From Pseudomonadota bacterium (GTDB taxonomy: Bacteria > Pseudomonadota > Gammaproteobacteria > Burkholderiales > Burkholderiaceae_C): a stretch of 64,000 nucleotides of DNA. The stretch covers positions 62,001 to 126,000 of the forward strand of contig JAIUPH010000028.1 in NCBI GenBank assembly GCA_020161065.1, given 5' to 3'. A model generated the notes under the pieces. It worked only from the letters and a program-made list of their open reading frames with translations. It had not been told where the DNA came from and made no database searches. A program made the translations under genes and the position numbers. The first letter of the stretch is position 1. Each line of letters starts with the position of its first letter. Of the stretch, positions 5,097-13,106 are shown one piece after another.

Positions 5097-5840
5097 TCAC
5101 CGCGGGCCGCGGCTCTCCAGCTTGGACAGGTAGTGGCGGTGCGTGCCGCGCAGGAAGCGCGCCATCTCGGCGATCGCGGCGTCGGCGTCGCGGCGGCGCA
5201 GGTGCGCGATGAAGCGCTTGCGCGAGGCGTAGACCTCGTTGCCGGTGGGCGGCCCCAGCGTCTCCATGAAGTTGTGCATCACCGCGATCAGGCCGTTCAT
5301 GATGGCCACGAAGACCGGGTTGCCGGTCTGCGCCGCCAGCAGCTTGTGGAACTCCATGTTGATGCGCGAGCGCGCGGCCAGGTCGCCGGCGTCGCTGGCC
5401 TGGCGCGAGGCTTTCACGTTGTCTTCCAGCGCCTGCAGCGCCGCTTCGTCCAGCCGCTCGCAGGCCAGGCGGACGACGTTCTCGGTGATCAGCAGCCGCG
5501 CCTCGGTCAGCTGCGCCGGCGTGACGCTGCCGAGCTGGAACATGTCCTGCAGCGCGGTGGAGACGAGCTGCCCGTCGGGCGCCACCACGCAGGCGCCGCC
5601 GGCCGTGCCCTTCATCGAGCGCAGCACGCCGGCCATCTCCAGGCCGCGCAGCGCCTCGCGCACGGTGTTGCGGCTGACGCCGAGCTTGAGCGCCAGGTCG
5701 CGCTCCGACGGCAGCCGGTCGCCGGCGCGAAGCTGGCCGTGGATCACGCGGCGGCGGATCTGCGCCGACACCTCCTCGAAGGCGCGCGTGGTCTGGATGC
5801 GTTCGAAGCCGGGTTCGTGGTCCGCGGGGCTGGTGCTCAT
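5097..5840 (-). CDS. GntR-family transcriptional regulator, FadR/FCD type
   Basis: This 247-residue regulator has an N-terminal GntR winged helix (ERDLALKLGVSRNTVREALR, about residues 46-65) and an all-helical FCD ligand-binding domain after about residue 95. Such proteins usually repress nearby catabolic genes and release DNA when an organic acid or acyl-CoA binds. Its ATG overlaps the selB stop by 4 bases (ATGA, 5840-5837), and its stop overlaps a possible GTG start of the SDR. A plausible target is the TGGTTGGACCA palindrome at 12040-12050 at the head of the operon, but this link is inference. The ligand is unknown. Confidence 0.9.
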   Translation of the reverse strand: MSTSPADHEPGFERIQTTRAFEEVSAQIRRRVIHGQLRAGDRLPSERDLALKLGVSRNTVREALRGLEMAGVLRSMKGTAGGACVVAPDGQLVSTALQDMFQLGSVTPAQLTEARLLITENVVRLACERLDEAALQALEDNVKASRQASDAGDLAARSRINMEFHKLLAAQTGNPVFVAIMNGLIAVMHNFMETLGPPTGNEVYASRKRFIAHLRRRDADAAIAEMARFLRGTHRHYLSKLESRGPR

Positions 5841-7849
5841 CGGGGGGCCTGTGCGTCGGCAAAACGATGCCGGTGGCGCCAATTGTGGCGATGCCGCGGC
5901 GGCGCCGGCGGCAGCCGCGCCAGCGCCTCGTCGGCCTGCGCCGACAGGCCGCGCAAATCGCCGCGGCGCACGGTCACGCGCTGGCGGTCCAGGCACTCCA
6001 GCCATTCGATCGCCAGGCCGCGCCCGGTGCCCAACGCATCACGAAACTGCGCGGCCGAGAAGCAGCCGTCGGCCTGGCCGCCGGCCACGCGCTGCGCCAC
6101 CTGGGCCACCGGCAGCGCCGCGCTGCGCAGCGCAAAGCGGTCGGCCGCCAGCCGCAGCACCGCGCCGCCGGCCACCTGGGCCTGCAGCAGCGCCTGGATG
6201 CGCGCCGGCGGCAGGTCCAGCCGCTGCGCCAGCTCGGCCACGCGCGGCGCCGCGGGGCCCAGCTGCTCCAGCTTGCGCCGCAGCCGCGCCCAGGCGGCGC
6301 CGTCGTCGCCCAGCAGCCGCGCCGCATGCGCCGGCAGGTGCAGCAGGCCGGCCTTGCGGCAGGCCAGGCCGCGGCGCAGCGCCTGCTCGACGACGGCCGC
6401 GAACACCGCCGGCGGCAGCCGCGCCGGCAGCGCCGCGGCCACGGCGGCCGGCGTCTCGCCGGCGCGCTCGGGGTGCGCGCGGTGGCCGTGCGCCAGCGCG
6501 GCGGCCAGGCTGCCGAGCGCTTCGTCCAGGCGCTCGGGCGCGACGGCATAACCTTGATGATGAACGCCATCGGCGGCGGCGTCGATCGCCACCAGCCCGG
6601 CGGCCGCCATCACCTCGTCCAGCGCCTGGCGGTGCAGCCGGCACAGCCGTCCGAACCAGGCCAGGTCGACGAAGCCCGGCGCCTGCCGGGCCAGGGCGGC
6701 CAGCACCTCGTGGTCGGCGCCGGCCTGCAGCGCCTGCAGCCGCGCGGCGTGCGCGGCGCCGCGGCGCGAGACGGTGCCGACCGTGGGGTCCAGCACCACG
6801 CCGCCGGCGGCGATGCGCGCACCCGCCGCGTCGCGCAGCAGCAGGCGGTCGCCGCGCCAGGCCGGCAGCTCGGCGCGCAGGCGCAGCGTGGCGCAGGCCG
6901 CGCTGCCGGGGAGCAGTTCGCGCGCCGGCGTCAGCAGCACGCGGGCGTCGATCGACGAGGCCGCGAGGTGCAGCACCAGCGTCTGCTCGTGGCGCAGCGG
7001 CGGCGCGCCGGCGGGCACGCTCAAGCGCACGTCGAGCGTGCGCGCCGGCGCGTGCAGGGCAGGGGCGACCAGCCAGTCGCCGCGCTGCAGCCGCGTGCGC
7101 TCGATGCCCGCCAGGTTGACGGCGCAGCGGCTGCCGGCGTCGACCGCGGGCAGGGTTTCGTCGTGCACCTGCAGCCGGCGCACGCGCGCGGCCAGGCCCG
7201 AAGGCGAGACCCGCAGTTCGTCGCCGACGGCCAGCCGCCCTTCGACCAGCGTGCCGGTGACCACCGTGCCGGCGCCGGCGACGCTGAAGACGCGGTCGAC
7301 CGCGAGCCTGGCGGCGCCGGCGCGGCCCGGTGCGGCGGGCGTGCGCCGCGCCTCGGCCTGCAGGTGCGCGGCCAGCGCCGCCAGCCCAACGCCGCTGGGC
7401 GCGCAGACGCGGAACACCGGCGCACCGCGCAGCTCGCCGGCGGCCAGCAGCAAGCGGGCCTCGGCGGCGGCTGCAGCTGCGCGGCGCGCGTCGACGCGGT
7501 CGATCTTGGTCACGACGATGGCGGCGCGCTTCAGGCCCAGCAGGTCCAGCGCGGCGGCGTGCTCGCGCGTCTGCGGCATCACGCCGTCGTCGGCGGCCAC
7601 CACCAGCAGCGCCAGGTCCACGTGGGCCAGGCCGCTGAGCATGTTGCGCAGGTAGCGCTGGTGGCCCGGCACGTCGACGAAGCTGATCGGCTGCCGGCCG
7701 TCGCCCTCGGCGCGCAGCGCCGCGAAGCCGAGGTCGATCGACAGCCCGCGCGCCTGCTCCTCGGCCAGGCGGTCGGTGTCGACGCCGGTCAGCGCGCGCA
7801 CCAGCGCGGTCTTGCCGTGGTCGACGTGGCCGGCGGTGGCGACGATCAT
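5837..7849 (-). CDS. selB: selenocysteine-specific translation elongation factor SelB
   Basis: SelB is the EF-Tu-like GTPase that brings selenocysteyl-tRNA to in-frame UGA codons by binding a SECIS hairpin in the mRNA. The 670-residue protein opens with the P-loop [20 protein letters not shown], then [10 protein letters not shown], the [13 protein letters not shown]3 region and the TKID G4 motif. EF-Tu-like beta domains follow, then a long C-terminal winged-helix array for SECIS binding. It is somewhat longer than E. coli SelB (614). Both ends overlap their neighbours by 4 bases, so it is co-translated with the acyl-CoA ligase and gntR, two cistrons after the UGSC selenoprotein. No selA, selD or tRNA-Sec gene is in the window. 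Confidence 0.95.
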
Positions 7850-9999
7850 GGCCGGTCCGGCTCCGGCCGCGCCAGGCGGACCAGCGCGTCGAGCGCCAGC
7901 ACGTCGCCGCGGGTGGTCAGCGCGAGCGGGTTGACGTCGATCTCGGCCACCTGCTCGCGCCAATCCCAGGCCAGCGCCGCGATGCGCGCGACCGCGGCCG
8001 CCAGCACCGCCTTGCGCTCGTCGTCGAGCAGCGCGACGCGGCGGTCCTGCAGCTCGGCGATGGCGGCGCGGCAATCGGCCTCGGTCACCGGCAGCAATCG
8101 CATCGCGACGTCGGGGCGCGACTCCACCTGCGCGCCGCCGATGCCCACCACCAGCACCGGGCCGAACTGCGGGTCGCGATAGGCGCCGGCCAGCAGCTCC
8201 AGCTCGATGGCGACCATCGGCGAGAGCAGCACGCCGTCGATGCGCGCCGCCGGCGCGTGGCGGCGCACGCGGTCCATCATCGCGGCCCAGGCTTGCGTGA
8301 CGGCCTGCGGCGAGTCCAGGCCGAGCGCGACGCCGCCCGCCTTGGCCTTGTGCGGCAGGTCGGCCGAGAGCACCTTCATCGCCACCGGCAGCCCCAGCTC
8401 GGCGGCGGCGCGGCCGGCGGCGGCGGCATCGGCCGCGTGACGCTCGGGCAGCAGCGCCACGCCGTAGGCGGCCAGCAGCTGCTTGCCTTGCGCCTCGTCC
8501 AGCACGCCGGCATAACCCGGCAGCAAAGCGGCTGCGCGCCGGGCAGCGCCGGGCGGCGCGGCCACCGGCGCCGCATCGCCGGCGGCGGCGTGTTGCCGCA
8601 CGTCGCGCAGCGCGGCCAGCGCGCGCGCGCAAGCCGCGGGGTCGTCGAAGCAGGGCACGTCGGCGCTGTCGTGCAGCCGCGCCACAGCGGCCGCGTTCTC
8701 GTGGCCGGCGTACCAGACGGCGAGCAGCGGCTTGGGCAGCTGCTCGGCGGCCTGCGCCATCAGCGTGGCCACGTTCAGCGCCGGGCCGGGGAAGCGCGCG
8801 GCGTTGGGAAAGACGAGGGCGTCGACGCGCTCGTCTTCGGCCACGATCTGCAGGATGTCGGCCAGCGTCTCCTCGCTGCGCTGGATGGCGGCGGTGGTGT
8901 CCACCGGGTTCAGCGTGGAGCCCAACTTCAGCGGCAGCGCGGCCAGCTTGGCCTGCGTGGCGGCCGACAGCTCGGGCAGCGTGAAGCCTTCGGCCGCGAA
9001 GTGGTCGGCCATGATCGCGCCCAGCCCGCCGGAGATGGAGACGACGCCGATGCCGCGCGGCGGCCGCGGCGCGCGCGCGCCGGCCTTCAGCAGCAGCATC
9101 GGCACCTCGATCAAGTCGTCGAGGTGCTGCGCCTCGATCACGCCGAGCTGGCGGAACAGCCCGCGGTACAGCGCCGGCTCGCCGGCCACCTTGGCGGTGT
9201 GGCTCAGGGCGGCGCGCGCGCCGAAGGCCGACTTGCCGACCTTGTAGACCACCACCGGCTTGCCGGCGGCCACCGCGCGCTGCAGCGAGCAGCGCAGCCG
9301 CGCGCCGTCGGCCACGCCTTCGAGGTAGATCGCGATGACCTCGGTCTTGGCGTCGGCGACCAGGAAGTCGACGTAGTCGGCCACCGAGACGTTGGTCTCG
9401 TTGCCGGCCGAGATCACGAAGCTGGTGCCGATGCGCCGGTCCATCGCGCGCGCCAGCAGGCTGTTGCCGATGGCGCCGCTTTGCGTGACGATGCTCAAGG
9501 CCCCCGGCAGCGGCCGCTGCTCGCCCAGCAGGCAGGGGAAGTAGCCGGCGAGCACGCGGTCCCACACATTGAGGTAACCCAGTCCGTTGGGCCCGCAGAT
9601 CGGCAGGCCATGGGCGGCCGCGGCCTGTTGCAGCTCGCGGCCGAGGCGTTCGCCTTCATCGTTGGCCAGCTCGGCGAAGCCGGCCGACAGCACCACCGCG
9701 GCGCGGATGCCGCGCTGGCCGGCCTGCGCCACCAGCGGCGGCACGGCGGCGGCGGGCAGGGCCAGCAGCAGCAGGTCGGCCGGCTGCGGCAGCGCGGCGA
9801 TGGAGGCCGCCGCGGGCAGCCCGCGCAGCGTGCCGCCGCCGGGGTGCACGAGGTCGATGCGGCCGCCGAAGCCCAGGCGCTGCAGGCTTTCGAGGATGGT
9901 CGAACCGCTCATCGTCGGCTGGGCGGAGGGTTCGCGCGACACGCCCAGCAGGGCAATCGAACGCGGGCGCAGCAGCGGGTCCAGCTCGGTGGGGTTCAT
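7846..9999 (-). CDS. acyl-CoA ligase, NDP-forming (acetyl-CoA synthetase superfamily)
   Basis: This 717-residue protein has the one-chain architecture of NDP-forming acyl-CoA synthetases: a CoA-binding Rossmann domain ([12 protein letters not shown] near residue 8), succinyl-CoA-ligase-like domains with [10 protein letters not shown] and [10 protein letters not shown], and a C-terminal ATP-grasp domain ([19 protein letters not shown]). It would interconvert an acyl-CoA and ADP/Pi with the free acid, CoA and ATP; the acid is unknown. ATG 9999 fits the family N-terminus. An in-frame ATG at 10044 lies in the loop of the hairpin at 10029-10069. The stop overlaps the selB ATG by 4 bases. Confidence 0.88.
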
Positions 10000-10077: not shown

Positions 10078-10608
10078 TCAATCGGGCCTTTGCAGGAGCC
10101 GATCCAGCACCTCGGGCACGATGGTCGTGGCCAGGGCCTTGATCTGGTCTTCCGGCAAGTGGGACGTGGGATGCGGCACCACGATGGGTTTGAAGTTCAG
10201 CATCCCCGAGGTGTCGGCCTGGTAGTCCGCCTCACGCACGAATGCGGTCGTGATCACGGCTGCCGTCGGCACACCAGCCCTTTCGAGCCTTGCGGCGTCG
10301 AGCACACTGCTCAACGTACAACTGCCTCAGTCGGCCAGCGCGGTCACGACCACGTCGGCGCCCAGGGTCAGCTGCTCGATCATCTCGGGGAACGCCGGGC
10401 GCGAGAAGTAGGGCTTGCGGAGGTAGACCACCTCCTTCAGCGCGAAGCGCTGCTTGAGCTCCACTTCCATCTGCCGCAGCAGGCGCTGGGCGTTCCACTT
10501 GTTGTTGTCGAGCAGGCCGAGCACCAGACCGTCGAGCGTCGGAACCCGCCGGGCCAGGTCGAAGCTGGTCTTGACGACCTTGCCGACCGGCGTCAGCACA
10601 CGCAGCAC
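10078..10608 (-). CDS. UGSC-family selenoprotein with in-frame TGA as selenocysteine
   Basis: Two adjacent open stretches are one gene if the TGA at 10329-10327 is read as selenocysteine. The junction reads Ala-Asp-Sec-Gly-Ser-Cys-Thr, the hallmark of the UGSC family, and flanking sequence (ADVVVTALAD before, LDAARLERAGVPTAAVIT after) is continuous. From GTG 10608 the product is 176 residues, with Sec at 94 and Cys at 97, a Sec-x-x-Cys redox pair. GTG 10608 is preceded by a strong AAAGGAGGT six bases upstream. The ATG at 10626 would put that site inside the gene and give 182 residues. UGSC proteins are experimentally uncharacterised as far as I know. A SECIS-like hairpin follows the TGA, and selB lies downstream in the operon. 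Confidence 0.88.
10296..10316 (-). promoter_or_regulatory. bacterial SECIS-like hairpin
   Basis: Reading the minus strand, the stem CGTTGAGCA/TGCTCGACG forms 9 contiguous pairs (one G-U) around the loop GTG. It begins 10 bases after the TGA codon, and the first loop base, a G, is 20 bases downstream. A short stem, a G in the first two loop bases and a spacing of roughly 16-37 bases match what is known of bacterial SECIS elements. It lies wholly within the coding sequence, as SelB-dependent elements do. Confidence 0.75.
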
Positions 10609-10645
10609 ATCGGCACCTCCTTTCATCGGGGTTGAAGAAGACGGT

Positions 10646-11752
10646 TCAGGCGCCGGCGGCGGCGTCGGCCACGCTGCCGGCGGGAAAGCGCACCTTGGCG
10701 ATGGTGCTGCGGCCGCCCAGGCCGCCCCAGCCGGGGATCACCGCCGAGAAGCGCCCCGCGGGCCCGCCGGCCACGAAGATGTGGATGTCGTCGGGGCGCA
10801 CGACGACGGGCACTTCCTCGTCGTCGCGCGAGCGGTCGAACCACTTGGGCCACATGCGGTTGTAGAAGCGGCCGTAGCGCTGGCCGAACATCAGGTCGCC
10901 GATGCGGTTGCGCGCCTTCTGGTACAGGTACAGCCGCAGGTCGTCCTTGGACCATTTCTCCTTGCGGAAGAACTCGGCGTGCTCGGGCCCGACGACGACC
11001 ACCACCTCGCCCATGCCGAAGGCGTTGTTGCTGCCCAGCGATGACATCGCGCTGGCGATCGAGATGCCGACGCCGAAGGTGTCGGTGGCCACGTGGTTGG
11101 TCACGCTGTGCGGCCCTTCGGCCGAGAACGCGGCGACGATGGTGTCGCCGGGCGCGAAGCCGTGCTCCACGCGGTAGGGCTCCCAGGGGCTGGCTTCGTC
11201 GTTCTCGGCCAGCAGCAGGCCGAATTTGCTGGGCGAACCCATCGCCGCGAGGTCGGTCTCGCCGGGCCGGCCGCCGCCGACGTTGATCATGATCAGCCGC
11301 AGCGCGCGCGCGATCGTCGCGTTGGCGCGAAAGCCTTGGCCCATCACGTTGTGGCCGGCGTTGAGGCCCAGGCCTTTCAGCTCGGGGCCGCTGACGACGA
11401 GCAGCGGCGTGGCGCAATGCGTGGTGGCCTGGATGCCGGCGAGGTTGAAGCCGGGCTCGATCACGGCCTCCACCGCGGCCAGCACGATGGGCATGTAGAT
11501 CGGCAGGCAGCCCGCCATCACGGCGTTGACGGCGCACAGGCGCACCGTCGCCTGCGCCCAGCGCGGCGGCACGGTGCCCAGCACCTCGTCGGGGTCGCGG
11601 TCGGGCACGCCGGCCAGCATGCGCTGCACGGCCTCGGGCGTCGGCGGCACGACGGGCAGGCCGTCGGTCCAGCCCTGGTCGATGAAGTATTCGACGCCCG
11701 CGGTCCAGTCCGCGACCTCGATCTCGTCGGGCACCACGTCTTGCTTGGCCAT
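10646..11752 (-). CDS. uncharacterised UGSC-associated protein
   Basis: This 368-residue soluble protein has no family I can name. It begins with an acidic stretch, then GWTDGLPVVPPTPEAVQRML near residue 26. It contains a TTHCATPLLVVSGP segment, Gly-rich NVGGGRPGET and PGWGGLGGRSTIAKV near the end, and a basic, aromatic RYGRFYNRMWPKWF segment. Single cysteines occur near residues 75 and 103. It ends 37 bases before the selenoprotein GTG and starts 5 bases after the preceding small gene, so it is probably a functional partner of the selenoprotein. I recall this type of protein next to UGSC genes but cannot verify that here. No signal peptide is visible. Confidence 0.8.
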   Translation of the reverse strand: MAKQDVVPDEIEVADWTAGVEYFIDQGWTDGLPVVPPTPEAVQRMLAGVPDRDPDEVLGTVPPRWAQATVRLCAVNAVMAGCLPIYMPIVLAAVEAVIEPGFNLAGIQATTHCATPLLVVSGPELKGLGLNAGHNVMGQGFRANATIARALRLIMINVGGGRPGETDLAAMGSPSKFGLLLAENDEASPWEPYRVEHGFAPGDTIVAAFSAEGPHSVTNHVATDTFGVGISIASAMSSLGSNNAFGMGEVVVVVGPEHAEFFRKEKWSKDDLRLYLYQKARNRIGDLMFGQRYGRFYNRMWPKWFDRSRDDEEVPVVVRPDDIHIFVAGGPAGRFSAVIPGWGGLGGRSTIAKVRFPAGSVADAAAGA

Positions 11753-11757
11753 CGCGC

Positions 11758-12009
11758 TTACTCGTCGTCCAGCGGGTAGACCAGCTCGAAGCCCTCGGCC
11801 TCGATGCCGCCTTCGGCCAGCTCGCGGCCGAGGATGGCTTCGAAGATGCCGCGCGGCACCAGGCATTCGGCGCAGGCGTCGGCCCCGGCCTCGACGGCGA
11901 AGCGCAGGCGGCCGCCGCGCTCGGCGACGTCGATGCGAAAGCCCGAGGCCGCCAGCCCTTCGCGGGTGGCGCCGATGGCCTGCGTGACGCGTTGCAGATC
12001 GATGCTCAT
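11758..12009 (-). CDS. small uncharacterised protein with CxxC motif, first gene of the selenoprotein operon
   Basis: This 83-residue protein has one notable motif, DACAECLVPRGIFEAIL, with a Cys-x-x-Cys pair near residues 48-51, and an acidic C-terminus. The CxxC could bind metal or serve as a dithiol redox site, perhaps exchanging with the Sec-Gly-Ser-Cys site of the selenoprotein two genes downstream; this is speculation. It resembles the C-terminal part of NifU-like proteins only loosely. ATG 12009 was chosen; an in-frame GTG lies at 12018. Five bases separate its stop from the next gene. Confidence 0.72.
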   Translation of the reverse strand: MSIDLQRVTQAIGATREGLAASGFRIDVAERGGRLRFAVEAGADACAECLVPRGIFEAILGRELAEGGIEAEGFELVYPLDDE

Positions 12010-12039
12010 CTTGTTCACTCAGCTGGTTCATCGGTTGGT

Positions 12040-12116: not shown

Positions 12117-13106
12117 ATGCGTGCGACTCTTTCTTCGCGCCGCCGCGCCGCGGCCGCGCTGTTGGCGGCCGGCCTCGGCGCCACCGGCTGGGCCCGGGCT
12201 CAGGCGCCGGACGCGCCCTGGCCCACCAAGCCGATCCGCCTGGTGGTGCCCTACGCGCCGGGCGGCGGCGTGGACCTGACGGCACGCGTGCTGGCGCAGC
12301 GCCTGAGCAGCGTGCTGGGCCAGCAGGTGGTGGTCGACAACCGCCCCGGCGGCGCGACGGCGATCGCCGCCTCGCTGGTGGCCAAGGCCGAGCCCGACGG
12401 CCACACGCTGCTGCTGGCGGCACCGGCAGTGCTGACGGTCAACCCGGTGCTCTACCCCACGCTGTCGTACAAGGCCGAAGACCTGGCGCCGGTGGCGCTG
12501 GTGGGGCGCATCCCGCTGTTCGTGGTGACCTCGCCCGACAACCCGGCCAAGACCGCCAGCGAGCTGTTCGACCGCGCGAAGACGCAGAACCTCAACTTCG
12601 GCAGCGCCGGCAACGGCTCGATGACGCACCTGGGCGCCGAGCTGATCAAGTTCCAGCTCGGCCTCAAGCTGACGCACGTGCCGTACAAGGGCACGGCCGC
12701 CTTGATGCCCGACGTGGCCACCGGCCGCGTGGACCTGGCGCTGGCCGACTACGGGCCGATCAAGCCGTTGGCCGATGCCGGCAAGATCAAGGTGCTGGCC
12801 ACGGCGTCGGCCGCGCGCTCGGCGCTGATGCCGAACGCGCCTTCGATGGTGGAAGCGGGCATCCGCGGCATCGACGTCGCCACCTGGGTTGGCGTGGCAG
12901 CGCCGGCGGCGACGCCCGAGCGCATCCTCAAGCGGCTGTCGGCCGAAGTGGTGCGTGCCGCGGCCGACCCCACGCTGCAGCGCGAGCTGGCCACCGCCGG
13001 CGTCGAGACCACGCCGATGGACCAGGCGGCCTTCGGCCAGATGGTGGTGGACGAGCGCGCGCGCTGGAAGCGGGTGATCCAGGCGGCCGGCATCACGGCC
13101 GATTGA
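12117..13106 (+). CDS. tripartite tricarboxylate transporter substrate-binding protein (Bug/TctC family)
   Basis: This 329-residue periplasmic binding protein of the Bug family captures carboxylates. A signal peptide with a twin-arginine-like RRRAAAALLAAGLGATGWARA precedes the mature APDAPWPTKPIRLVVPYAPG, the usual Bug N-terminus. Family motifs DNRPGGATAIAA and THVPYKGTAALMPDV follow. No tctA or tctB membrane gene is nearby. It is divergent from the selenoprotein operon, suggesting that its ligand or a metabolite of it feeds that pathway. AAGGAG lies 8 bases before the ATG. Confidence 0.92.
   Translation: MRATLSSRRRAAAALLAAGLGATGWARAQAPDAPWPTKPIRLVVPYAPGGGVDLTARVLAQRLSSVLGQQVVVDNRPGGATAIAASLVAKAEPDGHTLLLAAPAVLTVNPVLYPTLSYKAEDLAPVALVGRIPLFVVTSPDNPAKTASELFDRAKTQNLNFGSAGNGSMTHLGAELIKFQLGLKLTHVPYKGTAALMPDVATGRVDLALADYGPIKPLADAGKIKVLATASAARSALMPNAPSMVEAGIRGIDVATWVGVAAPAATPERILKRLSAEVVRAAADPTLQRELATAGVETTPMDQAAFGQMVVDERARWKRVIQAAGITAD

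Follow-up and report, generated by a model that had tools for sequence, protein, structure and literature searches.

The minus strand of the DNA analysed here, a stretch of 64,000 nucleotides from a Pseudomonadota bacterium (the window), carries two short reading frames separated by a TGA codon, which raised the question of whether they constitute one selenoprotein gene and what its product might do. The frame from position 10626 to 10078 was interrupted solely by the TGA at 10329–10327 and read ...ALAD-U-GSCT... across it. The UGSC coding sequence (10078..10626, minus strand) encoded 182 residues from the ATG at 10626 or 176 residues from the GTG at 10608; the GTG, before which a GGAGG can be read in the sequence, is the more likely start. 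Residues were numbered from the ATG at 10626, which placed the TGA at Sec100. The joined product matched NF041046 with 139.8 bits (cut-off 125; residues 33–177) and PF24696 with 175.5 bits (cut-off 25; residues 10–178), and both matches spanned the junction, so that both halves fit one model. An earlier note on this DNA had joined the two frames into one UGSC-family protein, and this was borne out by the frame, open but for the TGA, by the scores above both cut-offs and by the DUGSCT motif. The window protein itself showed no difference from the family described by NF041046 and PF24696.

The TGA (10327..10329, minus strand) was assigned as the Sec codon of D-U-G-S-C-T from the sequence and from the codon column in relatives. 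Relatives were collected by tblastn with the window protein, and matches with E < 1e-38, more than 480 bases and at most one TGA were kept, giving 100 scored genes; weak, short, or multi-TGA matches were left out, as were L015 and L019 (both Sec) and a frameshifted copy (L017/L020). The codon at the motif column was TGA in 72 genes and TGC or TGT in 28, and termination at this column, the outcome named beforehand as speaking against selenocysteine, occurred in none of the 100. A cysteine stood at position +3 from the Sec or Cys in 97 of these genes (69/72 Sec, 28/28 Cys), and the three exceptions (L080, L083, and L089) had a serine there. Only TGA was read as Sec in this scoring, which Sec at UAG codons escapes; UGSC genes of Geodermatophilaceae carry Sec at UAG codons, according to the part of PMC5330540 available to us. 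It is very improbable that translation truly stops at the TGA, with the 3' half a remnant: nothing beyond the codon itself favours this reading, and the conserved 3' half, the Cys codons in relatives, the SECIS signature, and the full Sec machinery of the genome all speak against it. The TGA at 10329–10327 almost certainly encodes selenocysteine in the window gene, as the earlier note had claimed. Its warning that annotation may split such genes described a real risk, as in Paracoccus ferrooxidans, whose Sec-type copy is filed as a pair of hypothetical proteins. That copy lies on plasmid pFER4 (L044), with selB about 4.4 kb further on.

A hairpin after the TGA (10296..10316, minus strand) had the stem CGUUGAGCA/UGCUCGACG and an apical GU at 10307–10306. 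The mean folding z over 42 bases from the TGA was −1.42 in the 72 Sec genes and −0.16 in the 28 Cys genes, with a Mann-Whitney p of 1.8e-6 that is too small, as related sequences are not independent, although the effect is nonetheless large. For the window hairpin itself, the folding z was −1.2 over 42 bases and −1.9 over 48. When its nine pairs were followed across the relatives, 81% of Sec cells were paired, compared with 56% of Cys cells, and the observed pairing was equalled by 0 of 1000 permutations for Sec and by 20 of 1000 for Cys (27 distinct rows), which indicates that the Cys genes are not wholly free of pairing. The codon in the apical loop ended in GU in 64 of the 72 Sec genes and in one of the 28 Cys genes, and serines at the loop position of Sec genes were encoded by AGU in 50 of 50 cases. 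The hairpin after the TGA is a SECIS element, and the apical-loop GU is its sharpest sign. A comparison with Rfam gave four matches, all far under the gathering scores.

The window genome contained one tRNA-Sec match above cut-off, SelA, SelD, and two full-length SelBs, which were 41% identical. One SelB (670 aa; 5837..7849, minus strand) was located in the gene run of UGSC, and its start overlapped the stop codon of the ligase gene (ATGA). The other SelB (L190; contig C26, 50001–68000) was intact, and its neighbours were selA, tRNA-Sec, and the alpha gene of a formate dehydrogenase. The frame of this alpha gene was interrupted by a TGA in RV*HAPTV, and the formate dehydrogenase is likely a Sec enzyme. 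That a genome has a second SelB is not without precedent, since two complete sel operons were described in the genome of Photobacterium profundum 3TCK in the available part of PMC5330540; a phrase search of the literature for two SelBs in one genome found nothing.

UGSC matches were found in 5 of 398 genomes drawn from the phylum, 12 of 399 from the family (one below cut-off), and 4 of 31 from the genus, and the UGSC searches gave 18 genomes above cut-off. Sec-type UGSC, with TGA at the motif, was present in ten of these genomes, and all ten had a SelB of at least 228 bits. Among the eight genomes without a TGA copy (seven Cys-type, and G738 with neither), SelB was found in one, G551 (Fisher p 2.5e-4 across the 18); shorter SelB-search matches of 108–125 bits were taken for other translation factors and left uncounted. 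SelB lay less than 10 kb from Sec-type UGSC in eight of the ten genomes (the window genome G000, G012, G341, G438, G698, G743, G796, and G481) and not within 10 kb in G004 and G169. The SelB of the window gene run probably supports decoding of the UGSC UGA codon.

A SelB tree was built by a quick method from 34 rows with a midpoint root, rows from beyond these genomes being labelled 'other' with their linkage unchecked. In this tree five SelBs of this bacterial family formed one clade (SH-aLRT 100), with a formate dehydrogenase match near four of the five; for G004 the match was a short piece at the stretch end. The UGSC-linked SelBs fell outside this clade at several places, with at least four label changes forced, and this scatter suggests that the linkage is recurrent and not one inherited event. 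The scatter is also compatible with the window SelB being a mere passenger of a transferred Sec island, with no special tie to UGSC, since the linked SelBs do not form one clade and four UGSC loci also carried selA and five tRNA-Sec. Against such a passenger stand the overlap of its start with the upstream stop codon and its intact state beside a second intact SelB; G012 and G481 likewise had two SelBs, one of them near UGSC. We consider the passenger reading a serious possibility, somewhat short of an even chance; it concerns SelB alone and is compatible with the function proposed below. In four loci (L172, L177, L178, and L184), UGSC, SelB, SelA, and tRNA-Sec were located in one 20 kb stretch, resembling a selenocysteine island.

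Directly upstream of UGSC, a partner gene (10646..11752, minus strand) encoded 368 residues (DGLPVVPPT...AVNAVMAGC...), and elsewhere the two were adjacent or fused. The partner was present at all 23 above-cut-off places found in the UGSC searches and absent at one further place below cut-off (G678). All 9 plasmid records with UGSC were among the 24 with the partner. A search led by the partner found UGSC in 70 of the best 80 loci, out of at least 585 partner-encoding stretches. Several of the ten loci without UGSC (L068, L072, L081, L084, L098, L102, L112, L116, L117, and L124) ended at contig edges, and four were from Poribacteria. UGSC and the partner were on the same strand in 105 of 105 placed loci, with a gap of less than 300 bases in 100. 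At 14 of the 23 UGSC places the two were fused in open frames of at least 517 residues; the partner motif followed in frame before any stop in 13 of these, and the fusion in L030 was recognized by the position of its in-frame match. The constant neighbourhood and the fusions make a shared function of UGSC and the partner likely. A second UGSC copy of the window genome (contig C28, 94791–95255; L010, L166) had the motif U-S-T-C. It was part of a fusion with a partner domain, and a thioredoxin-reductase-like gene stood about 0.7 kb from it. In L105 and L111, a single UGSC gene was accompanied by a tandem array of three partner genes.

The partner gave no convincing match to Pfam (best E 0.023; 34 relatives scanned), to NCBIfam (best E 0.003 in one member; 83 relatives), or by sequence to the PDB (best E 0.11). 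In a Foldseek search it weakly resembled cyclic amide hydrolases and fumarases, with low TM-scores and a best E-value of 5e-4, and no family call was made on this basis. The partner was also rejected as a GrdE or GrdB part, with hhalign probabilities of 0.07% against GrdE (4 sequences) and 0.22% against GrdB. A 2008 survey of GOS sequences (PMC2398784, in the part available) reported UGSC fused to a conserved domain, 'Unknown_1', limited in spread. Identity of the partner with 'Unknown_1' would be a guess; the limited spread stated in that part of the survey differs from the at least 585 stretches found here.

AlphaFold2 modelled UGSC with a mean pLDDT of 95.9. Strands and helices alternated in the model, and Sec100 was located between a strand (residues 92–98) and a helix (residues 101–116). 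The predicted fold is Rossmann-like and not thioredoxin-like. The GrdB motif served as a lead, and real GrdB genes (L136–L139, L158, and L159) were then taken for comparison. When a profile of 68 UGSC sequences was compared with these six GrdB sequences by hhalign, the probability was 93.5 and the E-value 2.3e-7, with Sec opposite Sec in the C-terminal part of GrdB only; the GrdB profile was thin (six sequences, one a fragment) and the E-value refers to one comparison. The addition of short GrdB-like proteins gave a probability of 93.4 (E 2.6e-7), and these proteins alone gave 75.5 (E 2.4e-5). As controls, the best of 56 neighbour families gave an E-value of 5e-3, GrdE 4.5e-3, the reversed profile 0.34, and 20 column shuffles 0.022 at best. 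Masking the two motif columns gave a UGSC–GrdB E-value of 1.1e-5, with Sec still facing Sec. The two also shared the order of strand, Sec, helix, 'ExxG[IVL]P', and strand, followed by IPHP in GrdB (L158) and VPHP in UGSC, and the motif UxxC, which was UxxS in some GrdB rows. These comparisons make it probable that the UGSC domain and the Sec domain at the C-terminus of GrdB are akin.

Direct searches gave no such match: PF07355 matched none of 35 UGSC members at E-values up to 10 (HMMER), and it had no match in the window genome. Foldseek of UGSC against the PDB gave weak matches only, with neither GrdB nor thioredoxin among the best 50 listed. No convincing match to the PDB was found by sequence (best E 0.021) or by profile (0.71), and the best match in a fold search against a viral library had an E-value of 0.2. 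Because HMMER was blind to the relation and GrdB was absent from the Foldseek listing, UGSC is described as working like GrdB and not as being a GrdB; it was not classed as GrdB because it had no direct Pfam match and no GrdE-like partner. UGSC corresponds to the C-terminal Sec half of GrdB alone, without the N-terminal part, and unlike in glycine reductase its partner is neither GrdE- nor GrdB-like. Unlike the GrdB and PrdB systems, among which GrdB alone was compared directly, UGSC is also present in haloarchaea and in aerobic genera. The short GrdB-like proteins (L140–L157, L160–L165, and L131–L135), with U-P-x-C or C-P-x-C, matched only the C-terminal part of PF07355. Some match to the GrdB model was found in 22 of 28 partner-bearing genomes searched, compared with 5 of 299 genomes of the phylum draw, where the matches were weak and C-terminal only.

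The order of strands and helices in thioredoxin, as generally known, was used for the fold test, and a thioredoxin fold for UGSC was rejected by the layout of the model, by the position of Sec100, and by a profile comparison with an E-value of 0.17 from a thin profile (4 hits and the query). A thioredoxin layout had been proposed for UGSC in 2008 (PMC2398784, in the part available), and the UxxC motif and thioredoxin-reductase-like neighbours agree with UGSC being a thioredoxin-type redox protein. This is quite unlikely, since the model predicts a Rossmann-like layout in which Sec follows the third strand, the thin profile gave no support, thioredoxin was missing from the best 50 Foldseek rows, and the partner alignments contained no conserved Cys pair.

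Of the 28 Cys loci, 12 had a thioredoxin-reductase-like gene no more than 5 kb away, compared with 7 of 74 Sec loci (Fisher p 3e-4, a value that ignores kinship and locus length) and none of three loci of other type. The Arthrobacter gene run also included trxB and trxA, the latter met in this locus alone. Four relatives, all standing outside the 100-gene set, had neither Sec nor Cys in the motif: the fusions of Sporomusa (L043) and Vibrio (L045) with Met-Gly-Thr-Ser, L070 with Glu-Gly-Gly-Asn, and L030 (genome G738) with Asp-Ala-Gly-Val. The redox catalysis that the earlier note had read from the U-x-x-C pair stood as plausible from the sequence motif, with the +3 Cys kept in nearly all Sec and all Cys genes and with the reductase-like neighbours, but not for every member, as the relatives without Sec or Cys indicate that redox is not universal in the family. 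Either these relatives changed function or the partner chemistry can run without Sec. Aconitase X and DUF126 genes were located alongside L043 and L045.

The same four relatives, two of them beside aconitase X, would fit a UGSC–partner pair that catalyses a lyase, isomerase, or hydrolase reaction without redox, Sec or Cys serving as an acid, base, or metal ligand. The weak Foldseek matches of the partner, to cyclic amide hydrolases and fumarases, point in the same direction. Such a non-redox enzyme is nevertheless unlikely in view of the Sec or Cys in 100 of the 100 scored genes, the +3 Cys in 97, and the thioredoxin-reductase-like neighbours. By analogy, we lean towards UGSC and its partner being a two-part Sec-dependent reductase that acts like glycine or proline reductase. 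In this putative reductase, the partner would hold and activate a small organic substrate, and the Sec100 selenolate would attack or reduce it as Sec does in GrdB and PrdB, by cleaving it reductively beside a carboxylate. A selenenylsulfide between Sec100 and Cys103 might then arise, to be reopened by thioredoxin and thioredoxin reductase or by a small CxxC protein, and in the window the product could pass to the CoA ligase encoded next. Since the partner resembles neither GrdB nor GrdE, the part that activates the substrate would not be the same as theirs. More tentatively, and with the odds rather against it, the pair may represent a further class of Sec-dependent reductive cleavage beside glycine and D-proline reductase, serving the CoA-linked breakdown of small acids, in aerobes as well, with its own SelB for its SECIS in some Pseudomonadota and a second SelB for formate dehydrogenase.

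The UGSC family is known and functionally unassigned in the available parts of PMC13188914, PMC2398784, and PMC9312934, where the statement of the earlier note that no reaction is known holds. Neither the partner nor the likeness to GrdB nor the linked SelB appeared in the parts of the published UGSC descriptions examined; in the accessible text of the mostly open-access literature on UGSC, no function, GrdB link, or named partner was found, apart from the 'Unknown_1' fusion. The predicted Rossmann-like fold matching the Sec domain of GrdB, the constant partner family, and the SelB of the UGSC gene run seem to be new; the partner gene, this SelB, and the GrdB likeness lie beyond the coordinates 10078..10626 of the earlier note. 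The steady partner, the GrdB-like Sec domain, and the thioredoxin link make the function testable with two purified proteins. Furthermore, a genome with two SelBs, one of them in the UGSC gene run, is a natural test of whether UGA clients are divided between SelB copies.

The gene next after UGSC (7846..9999, minus strand) encoded an ADP-forming acetate–CoA ligase-like protein with CoA-binding, ligase, and ATP-grasp domains, which scored below the NCBIfam equivalog cut-offs. A small CxxC protein of 86 residues was encoded at 11758..12018 (minus strand). A relative directly followed the partner gene in L097; others were found in L039 and, with weak similarity (E 0.0016), in the tail of the Arthrobacter UGSC protein. 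Such a protein was found in 4 of 118 sources searched, which makes it an accessory at most. A TctC-type solute-binding protein (12117..13106, plus strand) was the divergent neighbour. Across UGSC loci the neighbouring genes were very mixed and none pointed to a substrate; the recurrent clusters, named from plasmid annotation or by our own reading, included CoA transferase, TctC, SDR, LLM, acyl-CoA dehydrogenase, and others in no fixed set. In Acidovorax sp. T1, the IncP conjugative plasmid p2-T1 (L037) carried a Sec-type UGSC and the partner, and the stretch that contains them also included a transposase gene of IS1071.
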